DNA of 41,482 nucleotides from a virus. The stretch covers positions 1-41,482 of IMG/VR virus record IMGVR_UViG_3300035459_000040. One strand, given 5' to 3'. A program made the translations under genes and the position numbers. Below the pieces are notes generated by a model, which saw only the letters and a list, made by a program, of their open reading frames with translations, ran no database searches and was not told where the DNA came from. This document shows positions 2,332 through 34,517 of this stretch, piece by piece (the stretch's first letter is position 1; the number at the start of each line of letters is the position of its first letter).

Positions 2332-3963
2332 TTATTTCCTGGTTTGCTTCTTGGTCGGTTTCTTCTTTTTCTTTGTTGCCCGCTCTGCCTCAGGAGACCT
2401 TCCTGCCACTTTTTTCTCTGGCGCCGCGGCCTTGAGTTTTGATTTCAATTCCTCGGCATACTCCGCTTCAACCGTCGCACGTATATTCTTCTCGATCGAG
2501 GGAACAAAGATTCCAAGTCTCTTGGCCTCCTCGATAAATATCGTATCCTCGTATCCTCCAAACCCATTCTCGGCCCTTTCGATCATGGCGAACATCCTCA
2601 CAACCTTCAGCAAATCCTTGGCGCTCCAATTCTGAGGTTTTCCCTCCAGACCGAGAAGCCTCAAGACGCTTTTGGGAACGTCGCTAAATATGGTGTCATT
2701 TAGAACATCATATATCAGTTCCAGATGATACTTGCTGATCTCGTCTGGAAGGGCCTTGATGATCAGGGGCATCAGAGCAGTGTTCAATCTTCCCCCGATC
2801 TCCCGAAAGATTTCCTCCTGGACGCGTTTGATGCGCTCTTTTTCCAGCCCTTCTGCTATTTTGGGTTCGGGACCGACGCCCATCATGTTGTGGGCATTCT
2901 GGCTTCTGCGCTTCTTGCAGGTCCTGTCGTTGCAGATCGTCAGCACTTTGCCACGGTTGGGTCCGCCGACGAGCAATCCGGTCGCGACGTGCGAGCACGA
3001 TCCGGGCGCCGCCTTGACGTAGCTTCGAACCGTGATCGAATCCGGATAAAAGGACGGCTTTCGCAACTCAGAAGTGATCAATACGACCGTCTTCCCTTCT
3101 GCCTCGAGCCGCTTGCGGATTGCTAGAAGGTGCGCCCTCATCTTGAGTTCGAAACAGGCGGGATCCATGCAACGATCGGCTGCGGTGATGTCGTTGAAGA
3201 GATCGCGGTTGAAACCCGTGCGTTTGGGACAGCTCACGCAGCTGCCGGCGTTCTCGATCAGGAGCAAGTCTTTCTTGTCGAATGATGCTTTCCGCAGATC
3301 AAGCTCGAATTCCAGCCGGATGAATCCCTTGAGGTCGTCGATGCTCGCCGGCATGCCGGTCGGACCGAAATTCTCATTCGAGTCAAGAGTGTATTCGAGC
3401 GTCTTCTCCTGATCCTTCGGTTGAAGTCTGGCGATCAGAAGCGCGTGCTCAAGGAAGATGGTATTGCTCCGGAGTGCTTTCTTTGCCGGTTCGATCAGGT
3501 TGACGAGTTGCAGCCGCTTGGCGATATACGATCGCTCCTTCCCGACCTTGGCCGAGATCTGGGCGATGTCGAAGCTCTTCCGCCTGAGTTGGTCGTAGGC
3601 TTCGGCCTCGTCCAGAGGATGGATGTCCGCTTTCTGTACGAAGGAAATCAACTGGATCTCGATCACCTGTTCATCGGTGAGATTCCGTACGATCGCCGGG
3701 ACAGTTCTGAGTCCAGCCTCTTTGGCTGCCCTAAATCTCCTTGCGCCTTCAACAATTGTCACCGGCCAAGATTCAGAGAGCCGCAAGAGGAGTGGTTCGA
3801 TGACGCCCTTTGAGCGGATGCTTTCCACCAGGCTTTTTTCCTTTGCGGCATCGAGCGTTTTACGTGGATTGTCCTTCGATTCGACGAGGTCCGCGACAGC
3901 GATATCTATTAGCCGATCGGGCGCGGGGATGAGATGGTTGGATAATGGAGGGTTTTCGTTCAT
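2332..3963 (-). CDS. ParB/RepB/Spo0J-like protein
   Basis: A 543-residue protein with an N-terminal ParB domain. Residues about 20-110 contain the hallmark ENPR-like region (SKDNPRK) and VEGARRFRAAKEAG (the box that binds nucleotide in ParB CTPases), followed by an HTH region to about residue 170. A cysteine-rich middle (SCVSCPKR, then ADRCMDPACF) looks like a zinc site. The tail is very Lys-rich (KKKKKPTKKQTRK). No ParA gene is present, so plasmid-type partition is unlikely; phage ParB-like proteins are often nucleases or regulators. It starts in an ATGA overlap with the preceding gene. Confidence 0.8.
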   Translation of the reverse strand: MNENPPLSNHLIPAPDRLIDIAVADLVESKDNPRKTLDAAKEKSLVESIRSKGVIEPLLLRLSESWPVTIVEGARRFRAAKEAGLRTVPAIVRNLTDEQVIEIQLISFVQKADIHPLDEAEAYDQLRRKSFDIAQISAKVGKERSYIAKRLQLVNLIEPAKKALRSNTIFLEHALLIARLQPKDQEKTLEYTLDSNENFGPTGMPASIDDLKGFIRLEFELDLRKASFDKKDLLLIENAGSCVSCPKRTGFNRDLFNDITAADRCMDPACFELKMRAHLLAIRKRLEAEGKTVVLITSELRKPSFYPDSITVRSYVKAAPGSCSHVATGLLVGGPNRGKVLTICNDRTCKKRRSQNAHNMMGVGPEPKIAEGLEKERIKRVQEEIFREIGGRLNTALMPLIIKALPDEISKYHLELIYDVLNDTIFSDVPKSVLRLLGLEGKPQNWSAKDLLKVVRMFAMIERAENGFGGYEDTIFIEEAKRLGIFVPSIEKNIRATVEAEYAEELKSKLKAAAPEKKVAGRSPEAERATKKKKKPTKKQTRK

Positions 3964-4301
3964 GGCCGATCTCCCCCATGTTCACTGTGGTCGCGCTCCT
4001 CGGTTGTCGACAGAAGCCTCGACGTGTCGACTTTCTCCATCATAGCTTTGATATCGTCCAGGAATTTCTGGGCGCGCTTAACCTCGACGCCCCGGTACAT
4101 GTCTGGATTCTTCACGACCTCTTCCGCCTCGGCGATCTTGCGTTTCGTCGGCTCGGCGATCAAATTGATGTAGTTGCGCGCCTGGTCGACCACGCCCTGG
4201 ATGCTCTCCCCTTCGGCAACCTCCATCTCGACGCCGATCTTCTCGTGCTCGTAGTTGCCCAGGTTGAACAGGCGTGAGTAGCTGACGGTTTTTACAGTCA
4301 T
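3960..4301 (-). CDS. Conserved phage protein of unknown function
   Basis: A 113-residue acidic, helical protein starting MTVKTVSYSRLFNLGNYEHE, preceded by a strong GGAGGAGC ribosome site. The N-terminal pattern (SRLFNLGNYE followed by alternating hydrophobic and acidic residues) recurs in early regions of many phages, as I recall, without an assigned function. It lies between the ACP-like protein and the ParB-like protein, with ATGA overlaps on both sides, so the three are translationally coupled. No catalytic motif or membrane segment is visible. Confidence 0.6.
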   Translation of the reverse strand: MTVKTVSYSRLFNLGNYEHEKIGVEMEVAEGESIQGVVDQARNYINLIAEPTKRKIAEAEEVVKNPDMYRGVEVKRAQKFLDDIKAMMEKVDTSRLLSTTEERDHSEHGGDRP

Positions 4302-4540
4302 GATTGCTCCTCCATTGTTTTTATGTTGATCGCATCCAGGACGTCCTGAACGCTGTGCATGTTGTCCGTCTCCCACGGGCTGAACGTGATCTTGAACTCC
4401 CGCTCAAGCATCGATTGAAGCTCCAACTCCGCGGCGGTGTCAAGCCCGAGATCGGCAAAGCGCGATTCAGGAGTGACCCTCTCCACGTTGACGCCAAAGT
4501 GCCGAGAGAGCAAAACCTTCAGAAACAGTTCTTTGTCCAT
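4298..4540 (-). CDS. Acyl-carrier-protein-like protein with Ser replaced by Thr
   Basis: An 80-residue protein with the acyl carrier protein pattern. A helix I region is followed by PESRFADLGLDTAAELEL (residues 24-41), then the acidic helix II/III pattern and VQDVLDAI near the end. In true ACPs the Ser of the DSL motif carries phosphopantetheine. Here the motif is D34-T35, so the standard 4'-phosphopantetheinyl transferase reaction is not expected. Length and charge match ACPs. It may be a decoy or structural ACP that binds host enzymes known to use ACP as a partner. It is ATGA-coupled to the next gene. Confidence 0.65.
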   Translation of the reverse strand: MDKELFLKVLLSRHFGVNVERVTPESRFADLGLDTAAELELQSMLEREFKITFSPWETDNMHSVQDVLDAINIKTMEEQS

Positions 4541-32873: not shown

Positions 32874-34517
32874 TCAACCCTTTCTCAAGTAACCGATCGT
32901 GCAACGACAGTTGGAAATGACGATGCCATTTGCTATATTCAAGCCGTAGACAGACTGGAGGTCATACACATGCCCAGAAAACTTGAAATAGCGAACATCA
33001 ACAACCTCATCGGTCTCTATCGCAAGGGAATGTCGATGAATCAACTTTCGAAGAGAGCCGGTATCGCGCGACCCACGTTGATGCGACATTTCGCCGAGAG
33101 CGGCGTCGTCACGAGAACTCAGTCCCAATCGGAGGCTTTGAAATGGTCCCGACTTAAGAGGAACAGGATCGCTGTTGAACGACAATGCGCGGCCGCATGG
33201 GATGCTCGTCGTGGACAAAAAGACCCTATGGAGCGGAGGATACGGAGAGCCAGAACTATGTATCATCGACTCCTCAGGGTTGGCAAGTTGGAAGGCGAGC
33301 TCGCCAGCATTCTGCGACTCCGCGGGGTTGCCGTTGAGCAGCAATTCCCCGTGAGGAACTACAACCTCGACATCGCCATTCCCAAAGATCGCGTCGCCGT
33401 GGAGATCGAAACCTCGAACCACTACGACACGAACGGGGTGCGAAAGAGAGAGCGACTCGAATATCTTCTCCACCGCGGTTGGAGCGTCCTTATCGTCTTT
33501 ACACCTTGGCCCAGCAAGGGCGTTCATCCGAACATTCCCTCGCTTGCAAACAAGTTCATCGCCTTCCGCGAGGCCGCCCGCAGGAACAAGTCCTCGCGTG
33601 GTCATTATGGGGTGATTGAGAGTAACGGAGAGCCGACGACCGCCGCGTGTTGCGATCTCGATGGCCGGGCCAGAATAGACGGATTTTAATACTGCGTTGA
33701 AATCGCCCTCCATCGTTGCCCCGGGCAAGAGACAGTTGATGACGTTCCCCGCGCTCCCGCTTGGATCGCCAGGGAACTGCATCGGCTCAACGCCGGCGGG
33801 ACGCATAGGGACATCGAACAAATCGTCCAGCTCCGCCTCCTTCGAATCCATGTGCCAGTGATCGAACTCGTCCGTCGGCTTAAGTCCCCTGGTTGCATCG
33901 TCCCTTGTCGAGATCCATTGCTTCCTGACGTCCGCGCCAGAACTCTTCGCCCCCATTAACGAACCCCAGTTAGAGGCGCTCAGAGTTTCCGTATGCGCTA
34001 TGACCATCGCTCGCTTGGCGATGATCTGCTCAAGGATGACGTTCGAGTTGATCGCAGCGGCAATCTCCCTCAGCGACTTGCCTTCTCCAGTCATCTCATC
34101 CACGATCGACATGATGCGCTTGCGCGTCTCGTCGTTAATCTGTGTGATTTTCGCTCCGCCTTGCGTCGAGAGATAATCTGACACTCGTCGTTCCCAACTT
34201 GCAGTCTGGCCGGCAGTGGCTTTGATCGAGTCCAGAACCTTGGCAGCGAAGAGCGGGGCAATCATCATATACAGCCGATGATAGACCGCCGTGATGAGCG
34301 GCTTCGAACTCTCGATCGAGCGGGTGATGTTGTCGTGCAGCTCGCCGGAATAGGCCGTGTGATCAATCGCTTCAGCGGCAAGGTGAGTCTGCGATCTCAG
34401 GGCCGCTGCGATCTTGATGTTCGCCCATGAGGTATAGCGGGACCGCTCTGCGTGTGCGCCAAGCCAGGCCATGCGCTTCTGCTCTTCGGATCGGTTCTCT
34501 AAGGGCGACCAGTTCAA
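32874..34517 (-). CDS. MuF-like head morphogenesis protein containing an intein
   Basis: 547 residues. Residues 1-261 are the Mu gpF-like minor head protein (VIAHTETLSASNWGSLMGAK near 172, HWHMDSKEAELDDLFD, then FPGDPSGSAGNVIN). Residues 262-536 are an intein, and 537-547 (CRCTIGYLRKG) complete the MuF motif NCRC. Splicing should give a 272-residue extein. MuF proteins sit inside the procapsid near the portal and take part in head assembly. The gene overlaps the portal stop by ATGA. Without splicing the conserved CRC end would be displaced from its fold, so splicing is probably essential for the head. Confidence 0.88.
   Translation of the reverse strand: MNWSPLENRSEEQKRMAWLGAHAERSRYTSWANIKIAAALRSQTHLAAEAIDHTAYSGELHDNITRSIESSKPLITAVYHRLYMMIAPLFAAKVLDSIKATAGQTASWERRVSDYLSTQGGAKITQINDETRKRIMSIVDEMTGEGKSLREIAAAINSNVILEQIIAKRAMVIAHTETLSASNWGSLMGAKSSGADVRKQWISTRDDATRGLKPTDEFDHWHMDSKEAELDDLFDVPMRPAGVEPMQFPGDPSGSAGNVINCLLPGATMEGDFNAVLKSVYSGPAIEIATRGGRRLSVTLNHPIMTTRGLVPAGGLAEGDELVCKRGNVRMNALAGPRCKDDKDAPTAVEKIFESLSLSHPVRVVVVRGFDLHGDAIFGNGDVEVVVPHGELLLNGNPAESQNAGELAFQLANPEESMIHSSGSPYPPLHRVFLSTTSIPCGRALSFNSDPVPLKSGPFQSLRLGLSSRDDAALGEMSHQRGSRDTGSLRKLIHRHSLAIETDEVVDVRYFKFSGHVYDLQSVYGLNIANGIVISNCRCTIGYLRKG
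32911..32939 (+). promoter_or_regulatory. Candidate promoter of the antisense endonuclease gene
   Basis: Plus-strand TTGGAA (32911-32916), a 17-base spacer and TATATT (32934-32939) precede the endonuclease ATG by 31 bases, with GGAGG between. Both boxes lie within the intein; the -35 begins at its second base from the C-terminal border. The -10 is the complement of the intein's Asn-Ile codons and the -35 overlaps its final Ser-Asn codons. The score is good for sigma-70 but not proved. Confidence 0.55.
32970..33689 (+). CDS. Vsr-like (EDxHD-type) homing endonuclease, antisense within the intein
   Basis: 239 residues on the strand opposite the intein. An N-terminal HTH (residues 12-45: LIGLYRKGMSMNQLSKRAGI...) and a basic linker lead to a Vsr-like nuclease core: LEGELASILRLRGVAVEQQF (E110, Q124), YNLDIAIP (D134), VAVEIETSNHY (E145, E147, H151), then RLEYLLHRGWSVLIVF. 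This is the pattern of the EDxHD homing endonucleases (Vsr-like; type example I-Bth0305I). Ribosome site GGAGG is at 32957-32961, 8 bases from ATG 32970. The stop is at 33687-33689, inside the intein. Its cut site is probably the intein-less MuF gene. Every codon is the exact reverse complement of an intein codon. Confidence 0.82.
   Translation: MPRKLEIANINNLIGLYRKGMSMNQLSKRAGIARPTLMRHFAESGVVTRTQSQSEALKWSRLKRNRIAVERQCAAAWDARRGQKDPMERRIRRARTMYHRLLRVGKLEGELASILRLRGVAVEQQFPVRNYNLDIAIPKDRVAVEIETSNHYDTNGVRKRERLEYLLHRGWSVLIVFTPWPSKGVHPNIPSLANKFIAFREAARRNKSSRGHYGVIESNGEPTTAACCDLDGRARIDGF

Follow-up and report, generated by a model that had tools for sequence, protein, structure and literature searches.

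Analysis of a 41,482-nucleotide stretch of viral DNA (positions 1 to 41,482 of IMG/VR record IMGVR_UViG_3300035459_000040; this whole stretch is called the window) revealed a MuF-like head morphogenesis gene interrupted by an intein, the opposite strand of which carries a complete gene for a helix-turn-helix (HTH) and Vsr-like nuclease. We interpret the pair as a mobile intein whose homing endonuclease gene occupies the opposite strand, a reading to which we assign a probability of roughly 0.87. The two coding frames, selection on both strands, conserved start signals of the nuclease gene, an allele from which the intein is exactly missing, sequence divergence around the insertion point, and horizontal transfer were established computationally. 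A preliminary description of the window had proposed that one element encodes self-removal on one strand and DNA invasion on the other; this is supported as the best reading, with protein splicing and DNA cleavage as predicted activities.

The MuF-like gene (34517–32874, minus strand) has a TTG start and encodes a 547-residue precursor. The intein (275 residues; 33734–32910, minus strand) spans Cys262 to Asn536 of this precursor, which are Cys1 and Asn275 in the intein numbering, and Cys537 follows as the +1 residue (junctions ...NVIN/C...SN/CRC...). The nuclease gene (239 residues; 32970–33689, plus strand), with an ATG start at 32970–32972 and a TAA stop at 33687–33689, lies entirely within the intein limits. 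The 2 frames are codon-matched, that is to say, nuclease codon positions 1, 2, and 3 pair with intein codon positions 3, 2, and 1, respectively. A Shine-Dalgarno sequence, GGAGGT (32957–32962, plus strand), is placed 7 nucleotides before the ATG, and a candidate sigma70-type promoter (32911–32939, plus strand), which was proposed from its sequence and from enrichment at the family level, is located inside intein block G and is composed of TTGGAA (32911–32916), a 17-nucleotide spacer, and TATATT (32934–32939). The preliminary description had named the interrupted head gene, the intein limits, the antisense reading frame, the GGAGG, and the 2 promoter-like hexamers, all of which were confirmed.

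The intein matched the Pfam family Intein_splicing (2.4e-5) and the MuF extein matched the head morphogenesis family phrog_2468 of PHROGs (3.7e-35); Intein_splicing was also matched in 53 of 59 intein members of the family. Profile searches against the PDB returned the MjaKlbA, Pho RadA, and Mtu RecA inteins, and the Foldseek list of the AlphaFold model consisted nearly entirely of inteins. In this model, the splicing parts (residues 1–60 and 241–275) have predicted local distance difference test (pLDDT) values above 90, and residues 155–231 are predicted to be disordered. Blocks A, B, F, and G and the catalytic Cys, His, and Asn are kept over very diverged loci; block B includes the TxxH region (VTLNHPIMT; 33600–33626, minus strand), blocks F and G (GHVYDLQSVYGLNIANGIVISN) occupy 32910–32975 (minus strand), and T38, N40, H41, and N275 are invariant in the intein alignment A7. 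With an N-terminal nucleophile, blocks B, F, and G, profile and fold matches, and an in-frame insertion, the element is predicted to be a splicing intein. It departs from the canonical definition of an endonuclease-containing intein, which has an in-frame endonuclease domain: no nuclease family was matched in the intein frame of any of the 59 members, and the nuclease is on the other strand. An extra conserved segment around an [FL]HGD motif (residues ~85–127; 33354–33404, minus strand), present in all relatives, has pLDDT values mostly of 68–90 and lies outside the solved intein splicing domains. Two relatives, L005 and L198, have Ala in place of Cys at the intein N-terminus (NAVLEG and NAVMAG) and resemble Ala1 inteins or degenerate copies.

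The nuclease matched the Pfam families MTES_1575 REase (3e-6), DUF559 (1.5e-5, above the cut-off), and resolvase-type HTH_7 (8e-5). An AlphaFold2 model calculated from an alignment of 59 relatives has a mean pLDDT of 93, and its best solved structures in Foldseek are the I-Bth0305I catalytic domain, the Vsr endonuclease, and NGO0050, with probabilities of 0.97–1.00 (1.00 for 3r3p and 0.99–1.00 for 1vsr and 1cw0). Profile matches to solved structures (3hrl, 3e-5; 3r3p, 2e-4) are consistent with these results. Asp134 and Glu145 of the catalytic core, which has the motif Y-N-x-D-x10-E (33369–33404, plus strand), are invariant in alignments A1 and A6 (all 59 aligned sequences); Arg162 (33453–33455, plus strand) is invariant in A1 and conserved in at least 90% of A6. 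HTH_7 or HTH_23, found in many members, provides the DNA-binding domain. By fold, catalytic acidic residues, and HTH, the protein is predicted to be a DNA-cleaving enzyme of the Vsr-like/DUF559 (PD-(D/E)xK-related) type, and the earlier assignment as an HTH plus Vsr-like enzyme is borne out by the Pfam, AlphaFold2, and Foldseek results. Many members (for example, L002, L016, and L018) have a tandem second HTH at the nuclease N-terminus, which suggests a modular change of target specificity.

Two kinds of evidence revealed that both strands are under coding constraint. The codons TTA, CTA, and TCA, each of which stops the other strand, were absent from both frames in 25 loci, compared with 134 expected on the nuclease strand and 192 on the sense strand; because resemblance to the nuclease guided the choice of these loci, some of which are related to one another, the combined P is not a clean probability. 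Substitutions were then assigned to sense codon positions 1, 2, and 3 in 51 independent pairs. The N-extein gave 27/19/54%, and the intein ends outside the nuclease gave 24/14/62% and 23/17/59%; the distribution was 39/20/41% and 39/22/39% in the splicing domains under the nuclease overlap and 44/23/34% in the linker under the overlap. Position 1, which is the wobble position of the nuclease, exceeded position 3 in 42 of the 51 pairs in the overlap and in 0 of 29 in the extein. The window and its relative L006 (78% identical) differ by 54/44/121 substitutions in the extein and 79/24/52 in the overlap. Neither a sense-only profile nor its mirror profile fits any overlap region, and the positional profiles therefore indicate that the linker is mainly constrained by the nuclease and that constraint on the splicing domains comes from both strands.

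Codon choice provides further evidence. The intein motif [FL]-H-G-D (residues 111–114; 33393–33404, minus strand) is the antisense of nuclease residues V142-A143-V144-E145. In this V-A-V-E motif, V144 is GTG in 122 of 137 sequences and position 142 is GTC or ATC in 134 of 137; these codons are free on the nuclease strand yet are fixed because they are needed for the intein F-H-G-D motif. The positional profiles and codon-choice tests reject single-strand coding, and the 2 genes form an overlapping pair with purifying selection in both frames.

The start signals of the nuclease are embedded in a conserved intein block. The nuclease ATG is the complement of the block F His255 codon (CAT), and the Shine-Dalgarno sequence is that of the block F codons Asp258-Leu259-Gln260. 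The block F His is encoded by CAT in 97 of 110 distinct inteins (44 expected from extein usage), and in 44 of 54 when only GC-rich loci are counted (17 expected); the block F Leu is encoded by CTC in 90 of 114 (25 expected). Judged from these codon preferences, the conserved block F motif appears to double as the ribosome-binding site and start codon of the nuclease. The promoter-like score just upstream of the nuclease was higher than that of sense-synonymous recodings (t = 6.8), and no such excess was found in four downstream windows or on the other strand (controls, t ≤ 1.4 in the excess direction).

Relatives were collected by tblastn of phage records and by scans of IMG/VR with four subgroup alignments. 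Nuclease relatives were found in 95 phage records, in 77 of which at least 80% of the nuclease length is covered, and the hosts of these phages include Pseudomonas, Salmonella, Gordonia, Mycobacterium, Rhodococcus, Vibrio, and others; the tblastn matches of MuF plus intein coincide with the nuclease matches on the opposite strand. The subgroup scans added ~165 further loci, and a single genome scan gave three loci only. The intein profile was covered almost end to end in 184 of the 194 loci having a nuclease match. The 10 remaining loci are mostly cut by contig ends, apart from the free-standing nuclease of L019 (described below) and L112, in which both frames are shifted. In the latter (L112:576–2193), the breaks in the nuclease frame and the intein frame nearly coincide and reflect either decay of the element or a sequencing indel. 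A LAGLIDADG-type protein (L079) and a truncated DUF559 gene (L194) were left out.

Full-length delimitable inteins carrying the antisense nuclease numbered 180 (143 distinct) in phages and viral contigs; position 1 is Cys in 179 of the 180, and the C-terminal Asn/Cys junction is present in all 180. The nuclease is in the codon-matched frame in 176 of 176 inteins with a locatable block F, and the antisense co-occurrence for which the preliminary description had suggested a search is thus present. Similarity to the nuclease was the basis on which these loci were sampled; intein copies without a nuclease are therefore under-sampled, and neither the loci nor the pairs compared are entirely independent despite thinning. 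The commonest host gene is MuF, with insertion at a common ...N/C[RK]C site. Other host genes, for which labels were checked in named cases only, encode uracil-DNA glycosylase (UDG; L171, L173, and L192), RtcB (L170), and dCMP deaminase (L023), and the +1 Cys is placed in CHHN of RtcB, C[RH]PP of UDG (L171 and L173), and the PCxxC motifs of the deaminase. The host protein of L036, which has CGAAATMC after the intein and is without a Pfam extein match, resembles a cysteine peptidase. The element is a widespread class across at least four unrelated kinds of host gene, broader than first claimed. None of the intein-bearing loci in the phage records retrieved has an annotated feature for the antisense gene. 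In the Salmonella phages TU03 and NBSal007, the intein-bearing MuF is annotated as NAD+-asparagine ADP-ribosyltransferase, with neither the intein nor the antisense gene annotated.

Comparison of occupied and empty alleles indicated mobility. The MuF protein of Salmonella phage TS3 is intein-free (348 residues), and that of BPS11Q3 has 620 residues; removal of exactly 272 residues from the latter leaves a protein with 337 of 348 residues identical to TS3, and the insertion point is exactly at the boundary of the Asn codon and the Cys codon. Identity between the occupied and empty genes is 58–60 of 60 nucleotides in most windows more than 200 nucleotides upstream, and falls at the insertion site to 50 of 60 (BPS11Q3) and 47 of 60 (CTH7), a pattern as co-conversion would leave. 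In addition, the intein DNA of BPS11Q3 and dunkel is 94.5% identical, and their N-exteins are 66% identical. The empty allele, the divergence peak at the site, and near-identical inteins in divergent hosts are classical, though indirect, marks of homing and, at the level of sequence comparison, indicate that the element has spread in this way.

Acinetobacter phage P1068 (L019) has an intein-free MuF gene (3693–4469, minus strand; LPMCKCRA) and a free-standing 297-residue nuclease, annotated at 2806–3699 (plus strand), convergent with and just downstream of the MuF gene. The antisense frame of this nuclease contains 12 stops, as would be expected where no sense constraint remains. We considered L019 as the ancestral state and rejected it, since a quick tree nests L019 inside the intein-borne nucleases with a Shimodaira–Hasegawa-like approximate likelihood ratio test (SH-aLRT) support of 99. 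The nuclease of L019 is therefore probably derived, and an escape from an intein is its likely origin.

We propose the following mechanism. The minus-strand transcript of the head gene would be translated into the MuF precursor, from which the intein would excise by protein splicing through Cys1, Asn275, and the +1 Cys. The promoter in the 3′ end of the intein may drive an antisense transcript, possibly while the late genes are silent, and the Shine-Dalgarno sequence and start codon of this transcript, complementary to block F, would direct synthesis of the HTH-Vsr-like nuclease. The nuclease may cleave MuF alleles that have no intein, at the ...N/C-R-C codons or close to them; with the occupied allele as the repair template, the intein and the nuclease gene would be copied together.

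Several points weigh against this mechanism. Splicing, antisense transcription, cleavage, and the cleavage target are all inferred steps; approximately 14% of the inteins do not have the block F His at the expected place, and a start codon is missing from this place in some; the Intein_splicing, MTES_1575, and HTH_7 scores of the window are below the curated Pfam cut-offs; and the Foldseek E-values of the nuclease are weak (0.015–0.06) despite the high probabilities. As an alternative, both proteins could be real and the nuclease not, or no longer, a homing enzyme, serving instead in HTH-based transcription control, phage exclusion, or DNA processing, for which the prominence of HTH domains among the members would speak. 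We consider this unlikely, given that the catalytic Asp134 and Glu145 are invariant and that the element follows the distinction between empty and occupied alleles, with a peak of divergence at its site, and moves between host genes.

Explanations in which only one strand encodes a protein are less probable still. The intein could be the sole gene and the antisense frame a reflection of sense-strand conservation: codon-matched antisense frames are commonly open in GC-rich DNA, and the intein profile partly matches the antisense of a free-standing nuclease, which demonstrates that mirror similarity exists. However, this similarity as an explanation was ruled out by the positional substitutions, which track nuclease wobble positions in the overlap, and by the codon-choice tests, which reveal selection on the nuclease start and Shine-Dalgarno codons; the free-standing nuclease of L019 tolerates 12 antisense stops, and the absent cross-strand stops, the known families and folds, and the spread over the phage records place the nuclease frame beyond chance antisense reading. 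We give this artefact next to no probability. Conversely, the nuclease could be the sole real gene, with the sense frame merely kept open and the insert staying unspliced in MuF, as proposed for the ShiLan element (described below). The evolution of the linker mainly under the nuclease and the predicted disorder of residues 155–231 would fit, but the conserved blocks and catalytic residues, the normal sense coding of the intein ends outside the overlap, the fold match to solved inteins, and the exact restoration of empty alleles between codons make this very improbable. The mobile intein with an opposite-strand homing endonuclease remains the preferred reading.

This arrangement resembles, and differs from, several known systems. 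Canonical mobile inteins with in-frame LAGLIDADG or HNH domains, such as PI-PfuI and VMA, share with it the HINT fold at conserved sites, an endonuclease, empty and occupied alleles, and spread by homing; here, by contrast, the endonuclease is Vsr-like and has a gene to itself, which runs along almost the entire intein on the complementary strand and carries start signals of its own. The split-intein “fractured genes” also carry linked nucleases. Vsr-like (EDxHD) homing endonucleases such as I-Bth0305I have the same nuclease fold and a link to phage introns or inteins, whereas those enzymes are intron-encoded or, in fractured genes, located between split intein halves, and the present gene runs antisense across a contiguous intein. 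The ShiLan insertion element of a mycobacteriophage methylase contains a hidden out-of-frame HNH endonuclease and was proposed to remain unspliced in its host protein (Arsenault et al. 2025, PMC11855218). Both elements are mobile inserts in a phage gene with a hidden endonuclease and a host frame without stops; the element described here differs in its antisense orientation, real intein domain, Vsr-like rather than HNH enzyme, and conserved Shine-Dalgarno sequence and start codon. Homing endonuclease genes also occur antisense to self-splicing nuclear group I introns (PMC9548176), but the splicing partner there is RNA, whereas here two conserved proteins share codons.

The literature searched, which did not include a 2025 preprint on actinobacteriophage inteins of “non-canonical architecture” (10.1101/2025.01.02.630785), contained no description of an intein with an endonuclease gene on its antisense strand, so that priority is uncertain. 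PMC11855218 refers to this preprint, by Gosselin, Arsenault, and Gogarten, in connection with overlapping frames, and the actinophage members of the present set (Gordonia and Mycobacterium) may be among the inteins that it treats. With this reservation, we are inclined to regard the elements as an undescribed and widespread class of phage mobile inteins, in which full-length splicing and homing genes are antisense to each other, block F (HVY[N/D]L[Q/E]) serves as the ribosome-binding site and start of the nuclease, and the unit has moved whole among MuF, UDG, RtcB, and dCMP deaminase genes.

As a conserved example of opposite strands of the same DNA encoding two full-length proteins, the pair appears to be among the clearest; the functions of the proteins are independent, and each can be assayed. 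Its relatives, many of them in cultured phages, open the evolution of antisense overlaps to testing. Annotation pipelines overlook the antisense gene, and these inteins may serve as splicing tools. For the selfish element, the arrangement would provide a way of producing the nuclease that does not depend on expression of the host gene, and it ties the nuclease to the splicing domain, such that loss of the message of one strand would harm the other.
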